64,000 nucleotides of DNA from the NCBI RefSeq assembly GCF_029229925.1, contig NZ_CP107254.1, forward strand, positions 1,674,001 to 1,738,000, given 5' to 3'. Both the position numbers and the translations under genes were made by a program. The notes beneath the pieces were generated by a model that did no database searches, was not told the origin of the DNA, and saw only the letters and a list, made by a program, of their open reading frames with translations. Of this stretch, positions 19,619 through 32,257 are shown one piece after another. The number at the start of each line of letters is the position of its first letter. Within the stretch, counting starts at the first letter, position 1. Source of the DNA: Halorhabdus sp. BNX81 (GTDB lineage: Archaea; Halobacteriota; Halobacteria; Halobacteriales; Haloarculaceae).

Positions 19619-20383
19619 ATGTCACTTACCCACATGAAATTGCAGGTCGATGGATCGGGGCCGGCGGAACCGTTTCTCGGGGCACGGGATCTCTTTCAAA
19701 CCGAACACGATCTCGCACGGCCGGTCACGGTCCGAATACGCGAAGATCCGGACGAGCGAACGCGGGTCAGTCACGACGCAGCCGGCCACTGCCTGACGAT
19801 TTCTCGACAGGCAGCAACGAGTGCCATGGCGCGTGAACTCGCGCTTCACGAGTTCGGGCACATGCACCACGCCGAAGCGCGCCACCCATCCCATACGCTC
19901 TCGACGGAGGAGGCGATCCTCCTGGCGTTGTCGGGCCAGAGTGTCGAACGCCGGACACTGTCGCAGTGTTATCAGATCGCCAATCACGCGCGGGACATCT
20001 ACGCCGACGACATCTGGATCGACGTCGCACCGGCCGAAAAGCTAGTGGACTTCCTCGAGGCCAGTCTTGCCGCTGCGGTGGCAGATCGGCCGGACGGGCC
20101 GACAGCCTGGGATCGGGTGTCAGGCGGGGCAGATCCGGACATCACAGCAGTCAACGCCGCGTTCGCGCTTGCGATCGTCGAACGTCACGGACTCGTCGAT
20201 ACCGATCACCGACTGTACGACCTGGCACACGCCGCCGCTACCGACGCGCCACAGCTCGGTGTCAACGAGTTCCGGGAGCGCTTTCGGACGCTCGCCCGGG
20301 ATCCGACCGAAAGTGAGTTCCGAGGAGAGTTGGTCGAACTCACCCGCACGTATGCAAGTCGGACCATGCCTGCGGGGGATTGA
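19619..20383 (+). CDS. Conserved haloarchaeal protein with HEFGH motif
   Basis: Protein of 254 residues, mostly alpha-helical. Around residue 75-90 it carries ELALHEFGHMHHAEARHPSH, an HExxH zinc-protease motif followed by more histidines. It has no signal peptide, so it would act in the cytoplasm. It resembles a haloarchaeal family I recall as DUF5781. Proteolytic activity is not shown; the motif and the upstream ISRQAATSAMARE helix suggest a minimal gluzincin-like fold. A second ATG (MKLQVDG, 19634) five codons in may be the true start. It is divergent from EF-2 across the hairpin cluster, and a GGCCCC-AGC-GGGGCC hairpin follows its stop. Confidence 0.75.
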   Translation: MSLTHMKLQVDGSGPAEPFLGARDLFQTEHDLARPVTVRIREDPDERTRVSHDAAGHCLTISRQAATSAMARELALHEFGHMHHAEARHPSHTLSTEEAILLALSGQSVERRTLSQCYQIANHARDIYADDIWIDVAPAEKLVDFLEASLAAAVADRPDGPTAWDRVSGGADPDITAVNAAFALAIVERHGLVDTDHRLYDLAHAAATDAPQLGVNEFRERFRTLARDPTESEFRGELVELTRTYASRTMPAGD

Positions 20384-20431
20384 GACAAGCCGCTGGCGTG
20401 AGTGCTATATCGGTTGACGTACTGCCGGAGC

Positions 20432-20446
20432 GGCCCCAGCGGGGCC
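20432..20446 (+). terminator. GC hairpin after HEFGH-motif gene
   Basis: Six-base perfect arms GGCCCC/GGGGCC around AGC, about 50 bases after the stop of the HEFGH gene. There is no T-run directly after it, so it may be a transcript-end stabiliser rather than a terminator. Confidence 0.35.
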
Positions 20447-20534
20447 ATCATCTCGTCGTTCTTGGGTCGAAAGGAGTGGATCGAGACAACCAATGACGTC
20501 AGTATCTCCGTGATAGTGTCACGCTGGGCTGCAT

Positions 20535-20545
20535 ACTTTTATACG
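20535..20545 (+). promoter_or_regulatory. TATA box of vWA pilin-like gene
   Basis: ACTTTTATACG lies about 35 bases before the ATG at 20574. With initiation 25-27 bases downstream this gives a leader of about 10 bases without a clear Shine-Dalgarno site. Confidence 0.5.
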
Positions 20546-20573
20546 CTCTCACCGACAAATAGGGGTACTAACG

Positions 20574-22922
20574 ATGAGATTCGGGGGAACATCAGCAGCG
20601 ACCTGGCGATCGGACAGGGCCGTTTCCGAACTGATGGGGTACGTTCTGTTGGTGGGGATCGTCATTGGGGGCGCGATCATGGTGGTTATTCTTGGCGCAC
20701 CCATCATGGAAGGGATCCAGGGCCAACAATCGGACGATACAACGGAATTGGCGATGCAGGAAGTCGACGGACGGTTGAGCACACTGTCGGCGAAGGGGGA
20801 GACGGGGACGATGGAATTCTCGTTCGGCGACGGTGGAGAACAGATCCAGGGACAGCCAGAATTAGTTGAGAATCAGGGGTATATCGAAGTTACTATCAAC
20901 GAGAACACGACCTGTTCGGCCCGTGTCGACCTCGATTCGATACGGACCGAGAACGACCGCGGCGAAATACTCGCCTACGAGGCGGGCGGTCTCTGGCGGC
21001 AGTCCGCCGACGGTGGTGTCGTGATGGTCACGCCGCCCTCCGTCTCGATCACGGACGGACACCTCGACATTTCGGTGGTGAACATGACCGGCGAAGTTGA
21101 TCGTGACACCACCCGTGCACTGGTAAACGCCACGACGTCACAAGCGGACTCTACGAAGGCCATCGAATCGCTGTTACAGGGCGAATGCAAGCGGCCGGAC
21201 AACGTCACGATGACGGTCCAAAGTGACTTCTACCAGGCGTGGGGCGAGCACCTCAGCGAAGAAACGGGGTATGAGGTTTTGAGCTCGAACCCAGCTGACG
21301 GCAGCAGTAATCTGACCGTCGACGATACTGCCGAGACAGCCAGAGTCTATCTCAATCAGAGTTCCCTCCCGCCGCGAACGAACGACAGTCAGAACAGCGT
21401 GATCGACGTGACCAACAAGAGTGCCTACATGCAGAACGTCTCGATCACCGGGAACGGCATCGCCGTCGATAAGAACGCCAACAACAACTACACCGTCTAC
21501 GCTGAACCGGTGGTCGATGACGTGGAGATCGGAACCATTCGACGGGTCTCCGCCGACGATAACGTGACGCGTCGTCCACTTGATGTGGTGTTCGTGGTCG
21601 ACGAGTCCGGGTCGATGGGTGATGATGGGCCAATGGGAACAGAAAAACGGGAATCGACCCGTGAGGCCATCCGAAACTTTACAACGTATCTTGACAGCGA
21701 TATTGACCGTGTTAGTTTGGTCGGATTTCAAGAAATGGGACCGGATTCTCGATTCCCCTACGACCACCCAAATTACGGTCGAATCTATAGAACGAATGGT
21801 AATATGTTGACAAATAATTTTGAAGCATTTAATGATACTTCAGGAGGCACCTTGGAAAAACTCCAAGCAGACGGGTGGACCTACACGGCGGGTGGGATGA
21901 AGAAGGCAACGGCTTTGCTTGAGCTTCGCAGCAATGAATCGAGAGATAAAATCATCGTACTACTTTCAGACGGCAAAAACACTCACAACCACGAGGAAGA
22001 CTGGTGGGTCAACGGAGACACGTATGAATCTGGGCAAACGTATACGCCGAATATTGAAACCTACTCGGGCGAAGACGAAACAGGGACAAATGCTGCAACG
22101 GTCCAAATGGCAAAGCTCGCCAGGAAGACTGGTGTGACAACGTACAGTGTGGGTTTCGGGATCCAGTCAAATATCCCCGATGACTTCTTGGAAGACGTCG
22201 CTGATGCGGGCGGTGGCTGGTACAACTATACGTCAAATCAAGACGAACTACGGGAGGCATTCAAACTGATCGCAAAGCGCGTCTCCAGCACCCAACAAAT
22301 CGGTCGGACGCCGCTGTCGACGAACCTCTCGGCAGGTGGGACCATTCAACCGCCACAGATCACTGGCAACACCGGCAATGTTGCCAACGTGACCAAGAAC
22401 GGCAATACCTTCTTGAACGCCAACGACCCGCTGGCCCCGTCGTCGTTCAGCCACTCCTTTTCGGTGGGTGGCGGTGACATGGTCAACTTCAGCGCATCGA
22501 CGTATAGCTGCAACGAGTGGGTCGCGACGAGTATGACCAAGACGCTCAACGGGTCGACATACCCAGTGACACGCTGTGCGAATATGTCGACCACGAATGC
22601 GACGACGCTCGATAAAAACAACGTCAGCGTCTTCACGAATACCGATTCGGCAGCCTTCAATCGGAATATTTCGGGCACAAACACCTCCGGATGGCAGACG
22701 AATCTCACAGATGCCGTCGTCAATCGGTCGCTCTACAACAGGACGAGCAATAAGCTCACGCTGGCCAGCAACGAGGTGCTCGTCCTCTTTGACTTCCCCG
22801 ACGGGAAGAACACGGACAACAAGATGTTGATGCTCTACACGGTTGGGCTCAGCGATCGGGCAGCACCCACCGGAATAATCGATTTCGAGGTCAGCAACGT
22901 CAAACTCGAACGCGGGTCCTGA
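20574..22922 (+). CDS. Pilin-like surface protein with von Willebrand A domain
   Basis: Predicted pilus-borne adhesin of 782 residues. The N-terminus has an archaeal type IV prepilin layout: SDRAVSE, then hydrophobic LMGYVLLVGIVIGGAIMVV, so processing near Arg-Ala by a PibD-type peptidase is likely. Residues about 45-330 are a pilin-like beta-rich scaffold. Residues about 335-570 form a vWA domain with MIDAS residues DESGS (343-347), a Thr in YTAGG and Asp in LLSDGKNT, so metal-dependent binding of a ligand is expected. A further N-glycosylation-rich scaffold follows. The vWA segment (about 21576-22283) is noticeably more AT-rich than the flanks. The gene points toward the pil operon and ends 37 bases from its last gene. 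Confidence 0.85.
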   Translation: MRFGGTSAATWRSDRAVSELMGYVLLVGIVIGGAIMVVILGAPIMEGIQGQQSDDTTELAMQEVDGRLSTLSAKGETGTMEFSFGDGGEQIQGQPELVENQGYIEVTINENTTCSARVDLDSIRTENDRGEILAYEAGGLWRQSADGGVVMVTPPSVSITDGHLDISVVNMTGEVDRDTTRALVNATTSQADSTKAIESLLQGECKRPDNVTMTVQSDFYQAWGEHLSEETGYEVLSSNPADGSSNLTVDDTAETARVYLNQSSLPPRTNDSQNSVIDVTNKSAYMQNVSITGNGIAVDKNANNNYTVYAEPVVDDVEIGTIRRVSADDNVTRRPLDVVFVVDESGSMGDDGPMGTEKRESTREAIRNFTTYLDSDIDRVSLVGFQEMGPDSRFPYDHPNYGRIYRTNGNMLTNNFEAFNDTSGGTLEKLQADGWTYTAGGMKKATALLELRSNESRDKIIVLLSDGKNTHNHEEDWWVNGDTYESGQTYTPNIETYSGEDETGTNAATVQMAKLARKTGVTTYSVGFGIQSNIPDDFLEDVADAGGGWYNYTSNQDELREAFKLIAKRVSSTQQIGRTPLSTNLSAGGTIQPPQITGNTGNVANVTKNGNTFLNANDPLAPSSFSHSFSVGGGDMVNFSASTYSCNEWVATSMTKTLNGSTYPVTRCANMSTTNATTLDKNNVSVFTNTDSAAFNRNISGTNTSGWQTNLTDAVVNRSLYNRTSNKLTLASNEVLVLFDFPDGKNTDNKMLMLYTVGLSDRAAPTGIIDFEVSNVKLERGS

Positions 22923-22959
22923 ACTAAGGACGGAATCGCTATTTTGCCGTCGTAGATAC

Positions 22960-23790
22960 CTAGCCTGCGAACGAGACCGAGACGTTCGTTTGCCTGACGT
23001 ACACACGATCGAGTGATCCGCCACAGGTCGCTGTCGAACTGGAGACACTCCAGTTGTCGGCACTACTGAAGTGATCCATCCACAGGGACTCCCGTGGCGA
23101 GTCAAACTCCAGTGCGACACTATTGGCACCCGATGCGCTCCCTGACCCTGTTCGATCAACCGGATAAATTAGTTCAGTGCCGTTGTGCGTAGCCGTGATT
23201 TCAAGCGGACCATCGCTCTGGATCGATCCCATCTCCGCGGATTCGATCGTAACAAACGATAGGATAGCAACGTCGTCAGTACAGACGAACTTCGGACCGG
23301 TATTCATGATGCCGCCGTCTTTCTGTTGGCGGAACGTCGCCCCGGTCTCGTAGGAGACGTTCGTCGAACCACTTGAGTAGACGAGCGCATCAAGCGGAAC
23401 TGTGTACGTTGGACCACCTGAACTTGGATTTATCGTGATATCCACCGTCGATCCCCGTTCGATGTCGATCGCTCCGCCCGACAGATCGAGCGTCTCGATG
23501 CGCGTCACAGCGGTTCCCTCCTCGATGCTTTCGAGCGATTGGCCGACAATCTCGAAGCTCTGCTCGGCGTTGTCGAGTTGTTGGCTGTCCCGAAACTCCC
23601 CGAGCTGGGAGAACCCGACCGTCGCGACGAGGCCGACCGAGAAGATGATGATCGCGAACGTAAGCGAGAAACCGACGAGTTCGGACAGGGCTCGGTCGGT
23701 AGACTCCTCGGAGAAGAACAACGACGTATCGGCTCGGTTGGGCGATTTTTCGGACCGAGTGAAGCCAGTTTTCCGGCGTTTATCCGTCAT
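22960..23790 (-). CDS. Pilin-like protein, last gene of pil operon
   Basis: Predicted pilus subunit of 276 residues. After a basic, polar leader, STDRALSELVGFSLTFAIIIFSVG forms the prepilin signal and hydrophobic core; a coiled region and beta-rich C-terminal part with several N-glycosylation sequons follow. The scaffold resembles the N-terminal part of the convergent vWA protein (both contain a block like YxxGxxxRQxxDGGxMxxxP), so the two are probably paralogues (DUF7289-like, from memory). The ATG at 23790 lies one base after the stop of the lectin-bearing gene. The open frame extends 33 codons further, overlapping that gene, but no start there is better supported. Confidence 0.78.
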   Translation of the reverse strand: MTDKRRKTGFTRSEKSPNRADTSLFFSEESTDRALSELVGFSLTFAIIIFSVGLVATVGFSQLGEFRDSQQLDNAEQSFEIVGQSLESIEEGTAVTRIETLDLSGGAIDIERGSTVDITINPSSGGPTYTVPLDALVYSSGSTNVSYETGATFRQQKDGGIMNTGPKFVCTDDVAILSFVTIESAEMGSIQSDGPLEITATHNGTELIYPVDRTGSGSASGANSVALEFDSPRESLWMDHFSSADNWSVSSSTATCGGSLDRVYVRQTNVSVSFAG

Positions 23791-23791
23791 T

Positions 23792-25543
23792 TTATTCATC
23801 CTCGAAGACAGTTCGATAACTTTTGTCGTCGTACCAGTATCGGAGACCGACTGTTGTCTGAATTGGGTTCCCCCCACCTCTGAGCCCACGGAGTTGAATT
23901 TCTACTTCTTCATTCCTCGGAATTGAGATGTGAGGAATCTCGACTATTGTCCCGTCTCCGTCCTTCGGGAACGATAGTTTGCCGAGTTCCACGTTGTGGT
24001 CCCAACTCCCATCGTTCCCGATATCGACCATCATTTCGGCCCCGTAATTGTTTTCGAGATAGTTCGCCTCCGAATTGAGTAGCAAGTCCGATAGTGTGAT
24101 CCCCGAATTCCAGTCGTTTTCGACCGTGAAGCTGAGACACTTTCCGCCCGTGGCTTTCTTTATTTGCTTCAGTTTCCATTTTTGGGAATCAGCTAGAGGT
24201 GATGTAAGAGAATACTGGAACACATCATCACTGTAGGGATCGGCTGTCAATGCGTCTCCACTGTGTACGGCGATGATCCGATACGTACCGTCTCCATTGT
24301 CCTTGATCTCCCAGTGCTGATTATCGCCGCCTGAGTAGCCCCATTGAATGATGTTCGCGCCATCACTGGTTGACCCACCAGAAACGTCAAGAGCTTTATC
24401 GGTCGCATGAGCGGGCGTGAGACGATATACTTTATTTCCGACTGCGGTTATATTCCATAACTCGTGGTCGTTATTGTTGTACCCTCCATGCTCAACGTTA
24501 GCCCCATCGCTTGTATCCCCATTTTCGACTTCTAATACATCGTTACTGTCTTCGTTCGTTATCTTGTATTGTCCTTCTTCAATAGCGTCTGGTGGAATAT
24601 AATTGCAGGACGGGTCAGTATTCATGCTGCCCGTATCATAAGTCAGCCCGGACACCGTGATATTTCGTGACACGGTTCCGATACCACCCTCGTCGTCAAC
24701 GACTTTCAACGTCACATTGGTTTCGCCGCTTCCAAGTGATGTGTTGTAGCGTGCCCCCTCATTAGACATATTCACCGGCGGGCTTACAGTCTGGTTGTCG
24801 AATATCCAGTGGTAGGCGTCGATCGTTCCGTCCGGATCTCGACTATTAGAGGCGTTGAATTGGATCGTCTGGCCGCTTTGGGGAAATGATCGATTGAGCG
24901 TGAACTTGGCGATCGGCGGTCTGTTGAACGGATTCAGCACCCGGCCGGTCGAATGAGGGTTGACTCCTTTTGCGATGCCGATAGAGAGGGTCTGGTCCAT
25001 CGGGATGACGCCCGAGGTTGTCGATGTCCCACCCGTCCGCGTCGCGGTGAGCGTGAACGTCGTCGAATCCAGACGATCTATCGAAACATGGACGTTCGAA
25101 TCATTGTGGACGGGGAACCCGCGGACGAGGTTCTCCCCGCCGCGTGCCACATCAACCTCGAGACACGTATTCGCCGACGAGACCAGGGGGCATTCCCCGG
25201 GCGGTTCAAGCGAGACCGAGTACGTATCCGACATCACTGCGGCCGGTTGATCGACGCGTAAGGTCGCCTGCTGGCTATCGCCTCCGAGGCGGGCAGCATC
25301 TTCGAGCTGGGTCGCCAGTTCCGTGCCGACGGTCTCGATTTGCTGGCGTGCGCCCGCCTCCTGTTGGTTTTCGAGATACCCGTTAGCGGCCAAAATCAGC
25401 CCGAAGATCAACACGGTGGTCATGCCGATCGACAGCGAGTGGGTCACCGGGGTCGAAAGCCCCCGGTCGTCGTGGCGTATCGATCGCCCGCTGTGGGCGG
25501 GCGTCGGCGGTTCAGGCTCGCTGTGGCGGTTGGTTGAGTTCAT
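23792..25543 (-). CDS. Pilin-like protein with PKD and ricin-B lectin domains
   Basis: Predicted pilus adhesin of 583 residues. DDRGLSTPVTHSLSIGMTTV and the hydrophobic run to about residue 54 form the pilin-like N-terminus. Residues 209-298 are a PKD domain (PIAKFTLN, GTIDAYHWIFDN, VTLKVVDDEGG). Residues about 322-463 form a ricin-B lectin domain with repeated Q-x-W-type signatures (DHELWNIT, NQHWEIKDNGDGTYRI, SQKWKLKQ) and DVSGGSTSDGANI, implying binding of a sugar. Residues 470-583 return to a pilin-like beta scaffold. The ricin segment (about 24155-24580) is clearly more AT-rich than its flanks. The ATG overlaps the upstream stop as ATGA. A comparable family without the extra domains is DUF7266-like (recalled, unverified). 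Confidence 0.85.
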   Translation of the reverse strand: MNSTNRHSEPEPPTPAHSGRSIRHDDRGLSTPVTHSLSIGMTTVLIFGLILAANGYLENQQEAGARQQIETVGTELATQLEDAARLGGDSQQATLRVDQPAAVMSDTYSVSLEPPGECPLVSSANTCLEVDVARGGENLVRGFPVHNDSNVHVSIDRLDSTTFTLTATRTGGTSTTSGVIPMDQTLSIGIAKGVNPHSTGRVLNPFNRPPIAKFTLNRSFPQSGQTIQFNASNSRDPDGTIDAYHWIFDNQTVSPPVNMSNEGARYNTSLGSGETNVTLKVVDDEGGIGTVSRNITVSGLTYDTGSMNTDPSCNYIPPDAIEEGQYKITNEDSNDVLEVENGDTSDGANVEHGGYNNNDHELWNITAVGNKVYRLTPAHATDKALDVSGGSTSDGANIIQWGYSGGDNQHWEIKDNGDGTYRIIAVHSGDALTADPYSDDVFQYSLTSPLADSQKWKLKQIKKATGGKCLSFTVENDWNSGITLSDLLLNSEANYLENNYGAEMMVDIGNDGSWDHNVELGKLSFPKDGDGTIVEIPHISIPRNEEVEIQLRGLRGGGNPIQTTVGLRYWYDDKSYRTVFEDE

Positions 25544-26541
25544 GTGTTCCCTCCGTAGACAGTGATATTTCGTTGCTGAGCGTACTGGATGGCGCTCGAT
25601 CGGTACGTGAGATTCACTGACCCGTTCCAGACGGCCGGCGTGCTACAGGCTGGTGTGGACGTGGTCTGGCAGTCCGGGAATGTGAAACTCCACTGGGGAG
25701 GAGTCGACCATACTGTTTGCGTGACGATCGAATACGTCCCATTGATCCGGTTCCCGTTCTCGATCGAAACAGTATACGGCGATTCGAGATGATCCTCGAT
25801 ACCAGTGAACGAACACTGATCGAACGCCCCCTCCCCGTCTACCAGATCGACGAGGACACGCCCACCCGTCGCCGTACAGTTGGCTGTTCCAAGAGTTCCC
25901 GTCGAATCGCTGACATCAACGCTGAGATTGTTGCCGTTGCCGGCCTCCGAACGGTTCATCGAATATTCGAGAAATTCGGTTGTGTCTCCAGCGACCGTGA
26001 TATTTGCCTGGTCCGCACTCACGTTCCGAAGATCGACGTTCAGGAGATACCAGCCGATATCGGTTTCTTGGCCCGACTGGATGACGTCCCAGTCGTGGTT
26101 GTTCGAGTTTGTCGGATCAGTGAAGTTTCGGTTCGTCGTCTGGAGGAGTCGCGTACCGTTCCTGAGTGTCTTCCGGTATGAGACGTTCGCATAGACGGTT
26201 CCCGACGTGGCGAACGAGCGGCCAAGCGCCGCGCTGTAGTTCCCAATCGATTGCGTGACGTTCTCGGTAAGGGCATCCACACCCCGGTTGTACTCGGCGT
26301 GGTTGACCCGGAGCATGATCGACCGACTCGTCTTGCCGGCTTCGAAGGCAAACCCATCGACGTTGTTCACTTCTGCCGAAACACGTTGCCCGTCCGTATT
26401 CTGGGTGAACAACACCGTGTTGACGACCAGCGACAGGACGACAATCACGACAGCCAAGACGACCGCCCCGACTAACAACAGTTGCCCGCGTCGATTTTCG
26501 GGGAGCGCTCGCCATCGGCCGGCGCTCGATTCGATCACCAT
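25540..26541 (-). CDS. Pilin-like protein of pil operon (DUF7261-like)
   Basis: Predicted minor pilin or pilus-assembly protein of 333 residues. NRRGQLLLVGAVVLAVVIVVLSLVV gives an Arg-Gly prepilin-type site followed by a helix, with a long N-glycosylation-rich extracellular part. Four cysteines in two pairs near the C-terminal half (for example FPDCQTTSTPACSTP) may form disulphides. It starts inside the end of the upstream gene (seven-base overlap) and its stop overlaps the next start as ATGA. Confidence 0.75.
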   Translation of the reverse strand: MVIESSAGRWRALPENRRGQLLLVGAVVLAVVIVVLSLVVNTVLFTQNTDGQRVSAEVNNVDGFAFEAGKTSRSIMLRVNHAEYNRGVDALTENVTQSIGNYSAALGRSFATSGTVYANVSYRKTLRNGTRLLQTTNRNFTDPTNSNNHDWDVIQSGQETDIGWYLLNVDLRNVSADQANITVAGDTTEFLEYSMNRSEAGNGNNLSVDVSDSTGTLGTANCTATGGRVLVDLVDGEGAFDQCSFTGIEDHLESPYTVSIENGNRINGTYSIVTQTVWSTPPQWSFTFPDCQTTSTPACSTPAVWNGSVNLTYRSSAIQYAQQRNITVYGGNT

Positions 26542-27212
26542 ACGATCAATCGCACCTCCAGGACGTTGTACACAGACCCGTCGACGGCGTTGGGTACCGG
26601 GTAGTACCCGCTCTTTCCAGGCTGCGGATTCTTGGTAGGATGAGTATCATATTGCCATAGTTCGGCCGTCCCGGCCGAGTCAGCGGTCAGCGTCATGTTG
26701 TCATACAGCACGACGCGCTGTGACGCGATGACCGAGCCCGTCGAGGGCGTCCCCTGGGAGGCCATCGTCACCGACCCGGTTCCGTTCGAGGGATCGGGCT
26801 GCAAGTACGACACCTCCACGTTGTACAGCCGACCACGGGAGGTGAATGTCTCATTCAATATCTGCCCGAGTTCACCCGGAATCCGGGTGGTTCCGTAGCC
26901 GATGTCGGGGTTCACAGCGCCGCTAAACGTGCGTTGACTCTGTGACCAGTTTCGGACAAGTTCCGAGAGCGGTTCCTCCTCAGCCTGAGACGCGATCAAG
27001 AGGGTGTCCTCAGCCTCTTGCTGCAGATCGGTGCGGACTGATGAATCGATCGCGCCTCCGGTCGTTGGCGTGACGACGACGACCTGGACGGCATACAACA
27101 ACGCCGTGATGACGAGGATCGCGCCGATCAGGCCTTCGAGGGTAAACGCCTGTCCGCGGTCGCTCTCTCGTGACCGCTCCTGTCCGGCCGGTTTGTGGGT
27201 AGGCCCGGTCAT
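26535..27212 (-). CDS. Pilin-like protein of pil operon (DUF7288-like)
   Basis: Pilin-like protein of 225 residues. SDRGQAFTLEGLIGAILVITALLYAVQVVVV is the processing site and hydrophobic helix; the EGLIGAILV core is close to classical type IV pilin. The remainder is a predicted beta-rich extracellular domain. The ATG at 27212 is two bases after the previous stop; a GTG at 27221 could add three residues and overlap it. Confidence 0.75.
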   Translation of the reverse strand: MTGPTHKPAGQERSRESDRGQAFTLEGLIGAILVITALLYAVQVVVVTPTTGGAIDSSVRTDLQQEAEDTLLIASQAEEEPLSELVRNWSQSQRTFSGAVNPDIGYGTTRIPGELGQILNETFTSRGRLYNVEVSYLQPDPSNGTGSVTMASQGTPSTGSVIASQRVVLYDNMTLTADSAGTAELWQYDTHPTKNPQPGKSGYYPVPNAVDGSVYNVLEVRLIVW

Positions 27213-27214
27213 CG

Positions 27215-27688
27215 TTACCACACCTTGACGATCAATCGGTACGCTGGCTCGGTCGACCCGGGAACGTCGACGGAGACGATCCGACTCGACTTCCCAAATT
27301 CGTCACGCGTGACGGGGTCCCCAACCATGGCGACCGGGGCCGACCCGTCGAGATATTCGACGGTAACGTTCAGATGCATCGACGAGCCGACGCCGAACCG
27401 ATCTTTCAGGTCGGTCGTCGAGAGGCTGAACAGCGCCATTGCGTTGGTTCCATTCAACGTGTTCGGCTCTGCCGGCATCGAGAGATTCGACACGATGGTC
27501 GATGTGACCCGATCAGCGGCTGCCTGTTCATCGCCGCCGACAGACGACTCGAACGGCGTCAACAGTCCCGGAATGAGCGACAGCACGAGGACGAACCCGA
27601 GCATGAAGATACTGATTCCGAGGACGAAATCCTGTAACGTCTGTCCGCGGGTATCCATCGGTCGCTGTCTTCCCTGGTCTTGCCCCAT
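27215..27688 (-). CDS. Pilin-like protein of pil operon (DUF7287-like)
   Basis: Small pilin-like protein of 157 residues, the first subunit gene after pilC. DTRGQTLQDFVLGISIFMLGFVLVLSLIPG is the predicted signal and helix. The short extracellular region has few distinguishing marks (SSMHLNVTVEYLDG). One base separates it from pilC, so it is in the same transcript. By position and size it could be a core or initiating subunit, which is inference. Confidence 0.75.
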   Translation of the reverse strand: MGQDQGRQRPMDTRGQTLQDFVLGISIFMLGFVLVLSLIPGLLTPFESSVGGDEQAAADRVTSTIVSNLSMPAEPNTLNGTNAMALFSLSTTDLKDRFGVGSSMHLNVTVEYLDGSAPVAMVGDPVTRDEFGKSSRIVSVDVPGSTEPAYRLIVKVW

Positions 27689-27689
27689 G

Positions 27690-29732
27690 TTACCCCCCCA
27701 CAGCTATCCACACCACGAGCGAGACGGTCATCAGCGCGACGGCGTATTTCAACCCGGAGATGATCCGGACGTTCCGGATATACCCGGCGATGACGGCCGA
27801 GAAGATGGCCTGCAACGAGACGGCGTGGAAGAACAGCATCGACAGCATGTCGTTGCTGGGCATGCTCGAACCGAAGTCCTGGCCACCCATCGCCTCCCCG
27901 CCGGAGCTGGCGGTCTGCTGGGAGAGGCCGGCCATCGTCTCGAAGAACTGGACTTTGAGCATGGCGATGACACCGAGCAGCGTCAGGAACGTCATGATGA
28001 TGATGACGACCTGCATCCGTGTCCGTGACTTACGATCCCGGTCGATGTCGTCCTGGTTCTCGCTCGCCTGGGCAGCCGTCGAGAGGACGTCTTGAATCTG
28101 GTTCGAGGCCTCCTGGGCCTCGCTAATGAGCTTGACCGTCCGACTGAGTCGTGGGACGTGATACTTGTTGTTGAATTCCCGGAGTGCCTGCTTGAGGTTC
28201 GTCCCGTAGTTGACCTTCCGGTGCATGATCGAGAACTCGTCAGCCAATCGGCCGGATGAGGTCTGGGCGACGATATTCAGCGATTCAAGCAGGGTCATCC
28301 CGGTCTCGTTTGCGCTTGAGAGTTTCCGAAGGTTCTCCGAGAGCTTCCCAATGACCGACCGACGATAGCGGACGTTCCATTCGTGGAAGATGGCCAGCGG
28401 AATGAAATTGATATACGCCGGCATATACAGCCAGAAAAACGTCCCCTGGAGCGGATTAGACTGCATTCCCGCCAGGGAGGTGGGTGCCCAGCCAATCACG
28501 ACGGTGAACACGAGCGCAACCAGCGTTATGGGAATCGTCACCGCCAGCACGTATGGCGGGTTGTCGCGCAGGAAAATGTGGGGCGCTCGCAGTATCTCGA
28601 TCACCTGATGGGTCCCCTCCCGGCTGTTGATCCGATCGAAAATGCTGTAACTTCCGGTGTACTGCTCGATCAGGCCGAGACTGAAGAGGTTGGTCTCACC
28701 TTCGATCTGGGCGCGCTTTTTCGGGTCGTCCGGGAGCAAGAAGCCGTTGCTGCTTTCGTCCGAGGTAACCGTCGAGACGAGCACGAGGAACGCGACGTTG
28801 ATCATCGGGATCAGCCCGTAGACAGTGATGTACATGAGATCGGTACTCGCGTTGCCCATCATGCTCATGACGACGAGGATGATGATCAACAAAAGCGGGA
28901 ACAAAGACAGCGTCATGTACATCTCCCCGAACAGTTCGAGGGTTTCGAGCATGCGCTGTTGTTCCTGTTTGCTCGTGCGCATGTACTTGTTCTTCTGATC
29001 TTCGAGGAACGACGTCATGTCCCCGCCGGAGTCGACGATCGAGAGCATGTCCGTCAGGAACTGACTCAGCTCGTCGCTCGGCGTCTGGATCGCTTGATTG
29101 CGAATCGCCGTCCGGTAGTCCGTGTCGAAGTAGGTCGTCTCCAGGACGATACTCTGGAACTCCTTTGCGACCTCGCCGTAGGTGTCGTCAGCCGCCGCGA
29201 TCGCTTCGAGGATATCGAGTTGGTTGAGCCCGCCGACCGACAACGCGTACATGAACGAGACCGCATCGGAAAGCATGACGTTGATCTCACGCTCGCGAGC
29301 ACTCGCCCGGAAGTAGGGAATCGAAACGAGCGAACCGAACCCGACCGCAAACCCGATCGTCCCGAAAAACAGTCCCGAGACGATCATCAGGAACGGAAGC
29401 TTGAGTGCCTGGACTATCGGGAGAATACCCTCGGGGAGTCCAAGCCCAAGAAACGACGGCATTTCGCCGGCAAATAGCGTCGCCACGAGGAGGTAGCCAA
29501 GCAGCATGCCGACGAGCCACAGTGATGTTCCCGCGATCGTGCCCACGGCCAGGGCCCGTGAAAGGAACATCTCGACGTTATCTGCCATGCGCGCTTCCGC
29601 CAGTTTCGTCTCGACGTTGGCGACGAAGTCACCGTCCTCGTCGAACAGGCGGCCAAAGAGGGGATAAAACATGTCGCCAAGGCCCCCGGACTCACCGATG
29701 GGTGACCCCCCGCGTCGCGTCTCGAGACTCAT
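27690..29732 (-). CDS. pilC: PilC/TadC-like type IV pilus membrane platform protein
   Basis: Inner-membrane platform of 680 residues for pilus assembly, belonging to the type II secretion F / TadC group. It has two halves, each with a cytoplasmic helical bundle followed by hydrophobic segments (for example LLLIIILVVMSMMG and VVIIIMTFLTLLGVIAML), and an N-terminal membrane pair around residues 60-140. This duplicated layout is usual for archaeal PilC/ArlJ relatives. The start codon overlaps the pilB stop as ATGA, showing translational coupling to its motor. Confidence 0.9.
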   Translation of the reverse strand: MSLETRRGGSPIGESGGLGDMFYPLFGRLFDEDGDFVANVETKLAEARMADNVEMFLSRALAVGTIAGTSLWLVGMLLGYLLVATLFAGEMPSFLGLGLPEGILPIVQALKLPFLMIVSGLFFGTIGFAVGFGSLVSIPYFRASAREREINVMLSDAVSFMYALSVGGLNQLDILEAIAAADDTYGEVAKEFQSIVLETTYFDTDYRTAIRNQAIQTPSDELSQFLTDMLSIVDSGGDMTSFLEDQKNKYMRTSKQEQQRMLETLELFGEMYMTLSLFPLLLIIILVVMSMMGNASTDLMYITVYGLIPMINVAFLVLVSTVTSDESSNGFLLPDDPKKRAQIEGETNLFSLGLIEQYTGSYSIFDRINSREGTHQVIEILRAPHIFLRDNPPYVLAVTIPITLVALVFTVVIGWAPTSLAGMQSNPLQGTFFWLYMPAYINFIPLAIFHEWNVRYRRSVIGKLSENLRKLSSANETGMTLLESLNIVAQTSSGRLADEFSIMHRKVNYGTNLKQALREFNNKYHVPRLSRTVKLISEAQEASNQIQDVLSTAAQASENQDDIDRDRKSRTRMQVVIIIMTFLTLLGVIAMLKVQFFETMAGLSQQTASSGGEAMGGQDFGSSMPSNDMLSMLFFHAVSLQAIFSAVIAGYIRNVRIISGLKYAVALMTVSLVVWIAVGG

Positions 29733-32257
29733 TCCTCTTCGACCCCGTCGGAGCCTGCCTTGGGCACGAACCGGCCGAAGTCGACGTCATCGTCATCGTC
29801 CTTGGCGCTCCCGTCGTCACTGTCGACATCGGTCAGTGCGCTCACGATGTCCGTCCGGGCCTGCTCCTTATAGCGGTCGAACAGCGGCGTGGCGTTTTCG
29901 AGGACATCCTCGGCCTCCGTCAATAGCTCGTCCGGCGGATCCGGTCGCGGAACCATCTCCTCTTTGGCCGGGTCGACCGTGATCTGGACGGATTCCATTT
30001 CCCGGAGGTCCTCCAGGCTGTGATCGAGTTGATCGTTGGCGATCAGCGTCATGATCGTCTTTGGATCGTTGATGAACGCCTGCAGCGTCGCGGCCACCTC
30101 GGTGTAGGTGTTCAGGCCCTGCTCGATGAGATACGCGAGGACGACCTTCCGCATGAACAGTTCCTCGTCGAGGGTGTCCTGGTCCCACCCGCGGTCGAAC
30201 TTGATCTCCTCTAAGGTGCTCGAAGAGCCCATCTGGAGGAACTCGTCGGACTCGGCCTGCCACTGGTAGACGTCCCTGACGTTGATTTCGTCGTTTTCCG
30301 GGGAGTACTCGTTGATCTCGGTCAACGTCTTGTTCCGGCGGACCTTCCGACCCTGCACCCGGGTCTGGGTCTGGATCGAAACCAGATCCAGCGCCGTAAA
30401 CAGCGTCTTCGAGACGTTGATCGGGTCGGTCGTGAACCGTTTGATGACCTCGCCGACCGTGTCGGCGTGGAACGTCGAGTAGCCGGTGTGACCGGTCGAC
30501 ATGACCTGGAAGAGGTCACGCCCTTCCTCGCCACGGACCTCGCCCATGACGATGTAGTCCGGGCGCTGGCGGAGCGCGGCCTCCAGCAGGTCGAACTCGT
30601 CGATGTCCCCTTGCTCATCCTCGCCGAAGGAAGGCCGGGTCACCGAGGCGACCCAGTTGCGCTGGGGGAGTTCGACCTCGCGGGTGTCCTCGATCGAGAC
30701 GATCTTGGCGTTGCTGGGGATGAAAAGCGAGATAGCGTTCAGCGAGGTCGTCTTCCCCGACGCCGTGCCGCCCGCGAAGATCATCGACTTGTTGTTCTCG
30801 ATGGCAAGCCAGAGAAACGCCATCTCGTCCAGGGAGAACGTGTTCCAGTTGATGAGGTCGACCGGCGTGAACGGAACGTCCTTGAACTGACGGATCGTGT
30901 AGTTGGTCCCGTGATCGGAGACCTCCCGTCCCAGGGTGAGCTGGGCACGCGAGCCGTCGGGCAGCGTCGCGTCGACCTGCGGCTGGCGCTTTGAGATACC
31001 TTTCCCTGATCGCTGTGCGAGTTTCACCACGAAGTCGTCGAGGTCGCTCTCGCCGTGCTCGACGTTGGTGATGATCTGCTCGTAGTCGGTGTGGTAGGCG
31101 AACACCCGGGAGTTGTACCCGTCACACGAGATGTCCTCGACGTTGATGTCGTGTTTGATCGGGTCGATCTTGCTGTAACCGATGTAATCACGCTTGAGCA
31201 AGTATAGCAGCTTCTCGACCTGGTATTCCGAGAGGGTGTCGGGGTCCTCTTCGAGGATCGCCGGTTCCGGTCGCGCCGCAATCCCGTCGAGCCCATCCGA
31301 TTCCTCGGCTGGTTCGATTGCCTGTGTCTCGGTATCCATTCCCACGAGCTGTTTGAGCCAGTCTGTCGATCCCGTTCCCGACTCGATATTGTCGTCGTAC
31401 ACGTCGTAGCGCTGCAGTAAATCCTGGGCCTCGCGTTCGATGACGGCGGCGCGATCGGCGTCCTCGTCTTCGACCCCGACGCCCTCTTCGGCGTACTTGA
31501 TCGCCGTCTTGAGTTTGTTCCCGAGGAACTCCTTTAATTCGCGCTCGATGTCGTTGAGCGCCGGTTCGACGACGTAGTACTTGCGTTCGTTCTCCTTTTT
31601 CGAATGAAAGAGGACGACACAGGCGTAGGGCTTGTTGACCCAGTAGCGCTCGACTTCCTCGAAGTGACGCTTCTTTTCCATCGGGACGGCCCGTTCGAGG
31701 TCGTAGCGATTGACGACCGTCGTGTTCCCCTCGACCGTCGAGAAGAACGCGTCCTCGTCTAACTCCTCGTTGACGTCGACGGTTCGCTCCTCGACGAGGT
31801 CTTTCAATTCACTCGCGCGGTTCTGGCCATGACTCAGGCGTCCCTCCGTCTCGTCGGGATCAAACCCGAGGTGTTGGCTTTTGTCGAAGGGGATTTTCTC
31901 CCCGTCCGTCCGTGGGTGGGACCCGTCGGCGTCGTAATAGTACTCCTGTTTGAAATGTTCCCAGAGATACGTCCCCTTGACGACCGGGGTGGTCTCGGGA
32001 TCGAGGAACGCCTGCCAGTGGGTATTCAGGGTTCTGGCGTCACTCGCCCGCGCCGTGAGAAGGTCGGCAGTCCGGTGTGGGTCGAATCCGAGGTACTCGC
32101 TCCGGTCGAACGCACCGCCGTCGTGGAACTCACGCCGAAAATCCACCCAATCATAGGCGTCTTCGTCGTCAGTTTGGTCGTCGTCGCTGTCCCCAAGCAG
32201 CGAGGTGGCACGAGAGCGAAGCTTATCGCCCCCACCATCTTTGTCATCAATTGCCAT
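29729..32257 (-). CDS. pilB: PilB-like type IV pilus assembly ATPase
   Basis: Cytoplasmic motor ATPase of 842 residues that drives pilus assembly. Walker A FAGGTASGKTT lies near residue 495, the Asp box and Walker B-like RPDYIVMGEVRGEEG near 570, and the His box in GHTGYSTFHADT. A long N-terminal region (about 450 residues) with an acidic leader precedes the GspE/VirB11-type core, as in haloarchaeal PilB proteins. It is the first gene of a seven-gene run with overlaps or one- to two-base gaps. I choose ATG 32257; a GTG at 32275 is possible, but the T-rich box at 32281-32289 is 25-30 bases before 32257. Confidence 0.92.
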   Translation of the reverse strand: MAIDDKDGGGDKLRSRATSLLGDSDDDQTDDEDAYDWVDFRREFHDGGAFDRSEYLGFDPHRTADLLTARASDARTLNTHWQAFLDPETTPVVKGTYLWEHFKQEYYYDADGSHPRTDGEKIPFDKSQHLGFDPDETEGRLSHGQNRASELKDLVEERTVDVNEELDEDAFFSTVEGNTTVVNRYDLERAVPMEKKRHFEEVERYWVNKPYACVVLFHSKKENERKYYVVEPALNDIERELKEFLGNKLKTAIKYAEEGVGVEDEDADRAAVIEREAQDLLQRYDVYDDNIESGTGSTDWLKQLVGMDTETQAIEPAEESDGLDGIAARPEPAILEEDPDTLSEYQVEKLLYLLKRDYIGYSKIDPIKHDINVEDISCDGYNSRVFAYHTDYEQIITNVEHGESDLDDFVVKLAQRSGKGISKRQPQVDATLPDGSRAQLTLGREVSDHGTNYTIRQFKDVPFTPVDLINWNTFSLDEMAFLWLAIENNKSMIFAGGTASGKTTSLNAISLFIPSNAKIVSIEDTREVELPQRNWVASVTRPSFGEDEQGDIDEFDLLEAALRQRPDYIVMGEVRGEEGRDLFQVMSTGHTGYSTFHADTVGEVIKRFTTDPINVSKTLFTALDLVSIQTQTRVQGRKVRRNKTLTEINEYSPENDEINVRDVYQWQAESDEFLQMGSSSTLEEIKFDRGWDQDTLDEELFMRKVVLAYLIEQGLNTYTEVAATLQAFINDPKTIMTLIANDQLDHSLEDLREMESVQITVDPAKEEMVPRPDPPDELLTEAEDVLENATPLFDRYKEQARTDIVSALTDVDSDDGSAKDDDDDVDFGRFVPKAGSDGVEEE

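Follow-up and report, generated by a model that had tools for sequence, protein, structure and literature searches.

A modular pilin-like gene of haloarchaea with a vWA domain probably replaced as a block by recombination

The closest described counterparts of the gene studied here belong to Streptococcus sanguinis: PilB, a pilin with a von Willebrand factor A (vWA) head that binds proteins and needs its metal-ion-dependent adhesion site (MIDAS) for adhesion (PMC8179133), and its partner PilC, whose pilin part is joined to a ConA-like lectin (PMC9934059). A MIDAS mutant of PilB is reported to lose adhesion with its pili still normal. The survey in the PilB paper treats modular pilins as a bacterial strategy (PMC8179133). 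For the modular evolution of archaeal type IV pili, the account of Makarova et al. 2016 is concerned with entire pilin sets and presents vWA proteins as regulators (PMC4858521). Here, we analyse a modular pilin-like gene at 20574–22922 (+ strand) of a 64,000-nt stretch of the Halorhabdus sp. BNX81 genome (positions 1,674,001–1,738,000 of NZ_CP107254.1; hereafter, the window). The original prediction for this gene described its vWA part as an AT-rich insert in a pilin scaffold. We confirm the observation and find the interpretation partly supported: the history of the vWA domain is the replacement of an old domain, not the insertion of a new one. The likely explanation, in our judgement, is that the gene encodes an archaeal type IV pilin of modular build, whose vWA module is exchangeable and has been swapped by recombination, and which probably serves as a tip adhesin.

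Architecture of the vWA pilin

The gene, delimited by its open reading frame, Pfam matches and orthologues across haloarchaeal genera, encodes a 782-residue protein that consists of a DUF7289 pilin module, a linker, a vWA domain and a C-terminal β-rich domain. Pfam assigns residues 15–260 to DUF7289 (E = 1.9e-22) and identifies VWA_2 (E = 3.2e-11); VWA_2 and VWA both exceed their curated cut-offs, and this extra domain is not specific to pilus biology. The N-terminal pilin module (residues 1–260; 20574–21353, +), recognized from Pfam, a predicted helix and invariant residues, combines the prepilin-like start SDRAVSELMGYVLLVGIVI with DUF7289. As judged by inspection, this start is of class III type (SDRAVSELMGYVLLVGIVIGGAIMVV), with a charged leader followed by a hydrophobic helix; the helix (residues 16–40) is predicted at low confidence, and R15 and G22 are invariant in the orthologue alignment. 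Composition and alignment define a conserved linker (residues 261–334; 21354–21575, +). In the vWA domain, the MIDAS residues D343, S345, S347, T436 and D466 are invariant across 11 orthologues (alignment A1). The C-terminal domain (residues 571–782; 22284–22919, +), defined by searches and the structural model, occurs only in vWA-carrying proteins and has neither a Pfam match nor a PDB sequence match. The AlphaFold model of the protein matches pilus adhesins first: SpaC, PitA, RrgA and S. sanguinis PilB.

Replacement of the vWA block in Halosimplex

The exchange is most directly visible in two Halosimplex genes, those of Halosimplex pelagicum and of genome G018. Their DNA is 95% identical in residues 14–334 and 96% identical in residues 571–780, as opposed to 56% in residues 349–564. 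The 95% identity runs up to residue 340 and returns at residue 571: both junctions are sharp, the left one lying directly past the ATG codon in the MIDAS motif FVxDESGSM and the right one at the TCC AGC ACC AAG CAG codons of SSTKQI (residue ~571). At the 14-kb scale, the two genomes show one ~510-bp break and are otherwise collinear at 90–93% identity. Projected onto the window gene, these junctions define a putative left recombination anchor at codons 336–348 (LDVVFVVDESGSM; 21579–21617, +), which includes the MIDAS DxSxS and is also placed by segmentation; an AT-rich exchanged block at codons 349–564 (21618–22265, +), covering most of the vWA domain and supported by segmentation, trees and the Halosimplex pair; and a putative right anchor at codons 571–580 (SSTQQIGRTP; 22284–22313, +), where scaffold identity resumes in the Halosimplex DNA comparison. 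The G018 block is closest to a block of another genus (G022; 72% DNA identity over part of the block), and in the vWA tree its sister is QS5, the sequence corresponding to that match, a grouping that the trees of the N- and C-terminal parts reject.

A constant scaffold around a variable block resembles systems of programmed switching, in which silent cassettes of one genome supply the variable part, as in Neisseria pilS/pilE. We consider such switching extremely improbable here: no second related copy of a vWA block was found in the genome of the window and 12 relatives (13 genomes), and the weak matches elsewhere lie mostly in large unrelated open frames.

Mosaic history in Halorhabdus

Phylogenies indicate that the window gene is itself affected. 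The trees of the N- and C-terminal parts are concordant, grouping Halorhabdus salina with G003 and the window with the pair H. amylolytica and G005, and both conflict with the vWA tree, which groups the window with H. salina and places G003 with H. amylolytica and G005. In approximately unbiased (AU) tests, the vWA part rejects the grouping of H. salina with G003 (p = 1e-4) and that of the window with H. amylolytica and G005 (p = 6e-5), and the grouping of the window with H. salina is rejected by the N-terminal (p = 1e-8) and C-terminal (p = 0.009) parts. The window's own gene is therefore a mosaic, whichever part moved. Residue identities follow the same pattern: H. salina and G003 share 85% in the N-terminal part and 44% in the block, and H. 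salina and the window share 55–60% outside the block (55% in the N-terminal part) and 65% inside it. Taken together, these sequence comparisons give good support to recombination of the vWA part. In a separate observation, residues 641–720 (window numbering) form an unusually divergent C-terminal patch between H. salina (L021) and G003 (L007), with 52–65% DNA identity, possibly reflecting another exchange.

Composition of the block

The claim that residues 335–570 are richer in A and T than their flanks holds. The G+C content at third codon positions (GC3) is 0.71 in residues 1–260, 0.80 in residues 261–334, 0.53 in residues 335–570 and 0.77 in residues 571–782, so that the gene is compositionally uneven, and the region singled out as AT-rich (21790–21860) lies near the minimum at residues 381–420 (GC3 0.35, G+C content 0.38). 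Unsupervised segmentation without prior knowledge returns codons 349–564 as the best internal segment (GC3 0.50 compared with 0.75 outside), with a log-likelihood gain of 20.8, whereas synonymous shuffles reach at most 10.6. When synonymous codons are shuffled within the gene with amino acids kept, residues 335–570 deviate with z = −5.9; amino-acid composition was therefore excluded as the source of the low GC3. Against a background of 464 kb sampled from the same genome, the window included, equally low GC3 occurs in just 0.7% of 216-codon windows (264 genes), and the internal GC3 contrast of the gene ranks second among 95 long genes. The strongest contrast in the sample belongs to another gene of this genome (L081 13375–15669, − strand; G000:C1 about 1513375–1515669), which has a 200-codon internal segment with a GC3 of 0.275.

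Almost every orthologue from the Halorhabdus, Halapricum and Halosimplex group has a lowered GC3 in the block (synonymous z of −2 to −8). Segmentation places the left composition edge at the same codons, 346–351 in window numbering, in the window gene, H. salina, G003, QS9, H. aquaticum and G018, and in several orthologues this edge coincides with the Halosimplex DNA junction. H. pelagicum and G018 have different GC3 values only within the block (0.77 versus 0.91; Fisher p = 3e-4; flanks p = 0.87 and 0.44), indicating that the composition moves along with the block and, on the simplest interpretation, arrives together with it.

The same data bear on an account that dispenses with recombination, in which diversifying selection drives very rapid evolution of the vWA domain and the low GC3 of the domain results from rapid AT-biased change. 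The domain is indeed more variable than its flanks in gene pairs without a swap (G008 and G062; 97% amino-acid identity in the N-terminal part, 84% in the vWA), and outside the block there is a weak correlation between GC3 and conservation in Halorhabdus and Halapricum (rho = 0.41, p = 0.05). However, stretches of equal variability outside the block hold a GC3 of 0.65–0.85, which weakens rapid evolution alone as a cause, and fast evolution also sits poorly with junctions that are sharp in genes 95% identical outside them, with tree conflicts that AU tests reject in both directions and with a window–H. salina pair that is closer inside the block than outside. We regard this account as unlikely.

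Age of the architecture

Full-length orthologues with vWA are found in Halorhabdus, Halapricum, Halosimplex, Haloferax, Haloplanus, Haloprofundus and further relatives, and the domain is at the same place in 24 of the 24 orthologues examined. (In the scan of genome contigs for orthologues, an alignment query gave matches and a single-sequence query gave none.) A family-wide search with the C-terminal domain alone yielded no vWA-less version; the sole shorter open frame that it returned is a frameshifted Halapricum gene. The original prediction had proposed aligning homologues without vWA to locate the junctions, and there were none among the 24, nor any homologue with the C-terminal flank alone. 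As the vWA domain is always present and the C-terminal domain never occurs without it, the two form one old unit behind the pilin module. In Halapricum sp. CBA1109, a frameshift near residue 546, not far from the right-hand block edge, divides the vWA pilin gene (L028 5635–7940) in two.

The original prediction also held that both flanks resemble the neighbouring pilin. This is true of the N-terminal flank (24% identity, E = 3e-10, both DUF7289) and not of the C-terminal one (E = 1.2); the neighbour, given as 276 residues, is 279–309 residues long, according to which start is taken. Behind the pilin module, most DUF7289 proteins that lack vWA have DUF7305, a part unrelated to the C-terminal domain of the vWA pilin. 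Judging from sequence, the flanks of the vWA domain are not two halves of one pilin, and an ancient graft of the vWA and C-terminal domains behind a DUF7289 module is probable.

The AT-rich block speaks for the insertion proposed in the original prediction, taken here as the recent insertion of a foreign vWA domain into a vWA-less pilin gene in this lineage. DUF7289 proteins without vWA do exist, the neighbour among them, and a true insertion of this kind is found in the adjacent DUF7266 gene. The vWA domain itself, however, is at the same place throughout the orthologues, its C-terminal flank is neither pilin-like nor ever found without it, and the vWA-less homologues end in an unrelated DUF7305 part. 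A recent insertion was ruled out, all orthologues carrying the domain, and as an explanation of the locus we hold it to be very unlikely. Relatives that lack the domain and align contiguously across its junction, as a recent insertion would leave, exist for the lectin of the DUF7266 gene and not for the vWA gene, such that the phrase 'AT-rich insert in a pilin scaffold' literally describes the former gene and not the latter. What endures of the proposal is the recombination itself, well supported by the mosaic trees, the AU tests, the Halosimplex block and a composition that moves with it. Homologues that all contain the domain, with matching phylogeny, had been named as telling against it: they do all contain vWA, but the phylogenies of the vWA and of the rest do not match.

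The surrounding pilus locus

The gene belongs to a type IV pilus locus with PilB- and PilC-like genes and five further pilin-like genes; gene order is kept in relatives. Convergent to it lies the neighbouring DUF7289 pilin without vWA (22963–23799, −), identified by Pfam, synteny and similarity to the N-terminal flank. This is followed by a DUF7266 pilin with a PKD domain, a ricin-B lectin and a C-terminal domain (23795–25543, −; Pfam), pilin-like genes of the DUF7261, DUF7288 and DUF7287 families (25543–27688, −; Pfam), and the genes for a PilC-like (T2SSF) platform protein, assigned by Pfam, and a PilB-like ATPase, assigned by its Walker A motif GGTASGKTT and synteny (together 27693–32257, −). 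In G003, the PilC gene (L097 4189–6221) appears as two overlapping open frames, suggesting a frameshift or an assembly error.

Orthologue alignment and composition show that the ricin-type lectin of the DUF7266 pilin is a lineage-specific AT-rich insert of ~150 residues (about residues 314–463; 24155–24604, −) with a GC3 of 0.42–0.53. It is missing from the DUF7266 genes of H. amylolytica, G005, H. salina, G003 and the two Halapricum-group genomes compared, and residues 1–313 and 464–580 of the window protein align contiguously with residues 1–305 and 305–440 of that of H. amylolytica. Its closest kin are ricin-type domains of other haloarchaeal proteins, two of them in the same genome, with at most 48% identity among the top full-span matches. 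The lectin differs between genera: DUF7266 pilins of Halapricum and Halosimplex carry a Laminin_G_3 (ConA-like) lectin and that of the window carries the ricin lectin. A Laminin_G_3 lectin is present in Halapricum G027 (L099 6799–9444), absent from G008 (L100 11237–12850) and present in the Halosimplex pair (L101, L102); lectin modules therefore come and go in this pilin.

Whole pilin sets are also replaced. In G004 (L096) and G006 (L094, L095), which belong to the same genus and have nearly identical PilB/PilC and EF-2 genes, the entire set between these genes is an unrelated one, compared with window positions 19619–27688, and it includes a very large DUF7289-like protein (1886 residues in G004). 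The PilB and PilC proteins of these two genomes are the closest to those of the window, at 89–93%.

A model for head exchange

We propose that the DUF7289 module would anchor the protein in the filament, and that the vWA domain with its intact MIDAS would form, with the conserved β-rich C-terminal domain, a head that binds ligands and probably sits at the tip of the pilus. This architecture is old. Homologous recombination between related haloarchaea would replace the vWA head as one piece, from just past the DESGSM MIDAS codons to the SSTxQI codons, with the conserved codons on either side serving as anchors. Drawn from a shared pool and not evolving in step with its host gene, the block would thereby keep a distinct, mostly lower GC3. 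Such an exchange may alter what the pilus binds and leave assembly untouched. Filament assembly, the tip position, an adhesion or binding target and selection for new specificity are features that we infer.

Several observations weigh against this model. The AlphaFold model is moderately confident (predicted local distance difference test 77.6, predicted template-modelling score 0.52), with whole-chain TM-scores of about 0.2. Block GC3 is not low in H. pelagicum or in the Haloferax, Haloplanus, Haloprofundus and G020 orthologues, so low GC3 is not a fixed mark of the block. For the Halosimplex blocks, no candidate donor exceeded 72% DNA identity over a long stretch, the partial match in G022 being the best; a single scan of viral contigs, queried with the vWA segment, gave no match, and plasmids gave distant vWA proteins only (at most 31% identity among the matches listed). 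Finally, trees of PilB and PilC would make G003 the simplest recipient, and the window and H. salina may share their block by descent.

More tentatively, haloarchaeal pilus loci may act as an interchange platform, in which vWA heads are swapped across species and genera, lectins are inserted in the partner pilin and entire sets of pilins are swapped in the interval from PilB/PilC to EF-2, with the MIDAS codons doubling as a recombination anchor. If this somewhat doubtful extension were true, recombination would alter the binding specificity of pili at a faster pace than mutation does, and viruses or mating-partner recognition may be the driving force. The Halosimplex pair constitutes a natural experiment, two near-identical genes that differ only in the head domain, and the effect of a head swap on adhesion is therefore directly testable. 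Experiments could then address which targets archaeal pili bind and by what route this specificity changes.

Comparison with known systems

Several known systems share features with this locus. As in the sortase-pilus tip adhesins SpaC, PitA and RrgA, the vWA domain lies between β domains; SpaC (6m3y) gives the best E-value of the structural matches (3e-12), and the vWA domain has weak sequence matches to Lacticaseibacillus pilus proteins. Sortase pili, however, are covalent structures that have no relationship to type IV pili; no sortase signal was noted in the haloarchaeal gene, and no search aimed at one was made. As in Neisseria pilin antigenic variation, an N-terminal part is constant and a variable part is replaced by recombination; unlike that system, there are no silent cassettes and exchange occurs between genomes. 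The alternative pilin set in G004 and G006 recalls the modular evolution of archaeal type IV pili set out by Makarova et al. 2016, and neither a vWA pilin nor the exchange of one domain inside a pilin gene is described in the available portion of that text (PMC4858521).

The likeness is closest to S. sanguinis PilB, in which a pilin module is likewise followed by a vWA domain with a MIDAS within a type IV pilus locus (structural match 7b7p, E = 6e-9). The haloarchaeal protein differs in belonging to the archaeal DUF7289 pilin family, in its extra C-terminal β-rich domain and in having a vWA domain exchanged between species, and the resemblance is probably convergent. It extends to the partner, as the vWA pilin adjoins the lectin-carrying DUF7266 pilin much as PilB is paired with PilC; an archaeal type IV pilus locus thus combines a vWA pilin with a lectin pilin in apparent convergence with the S. 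sanguinis pair.
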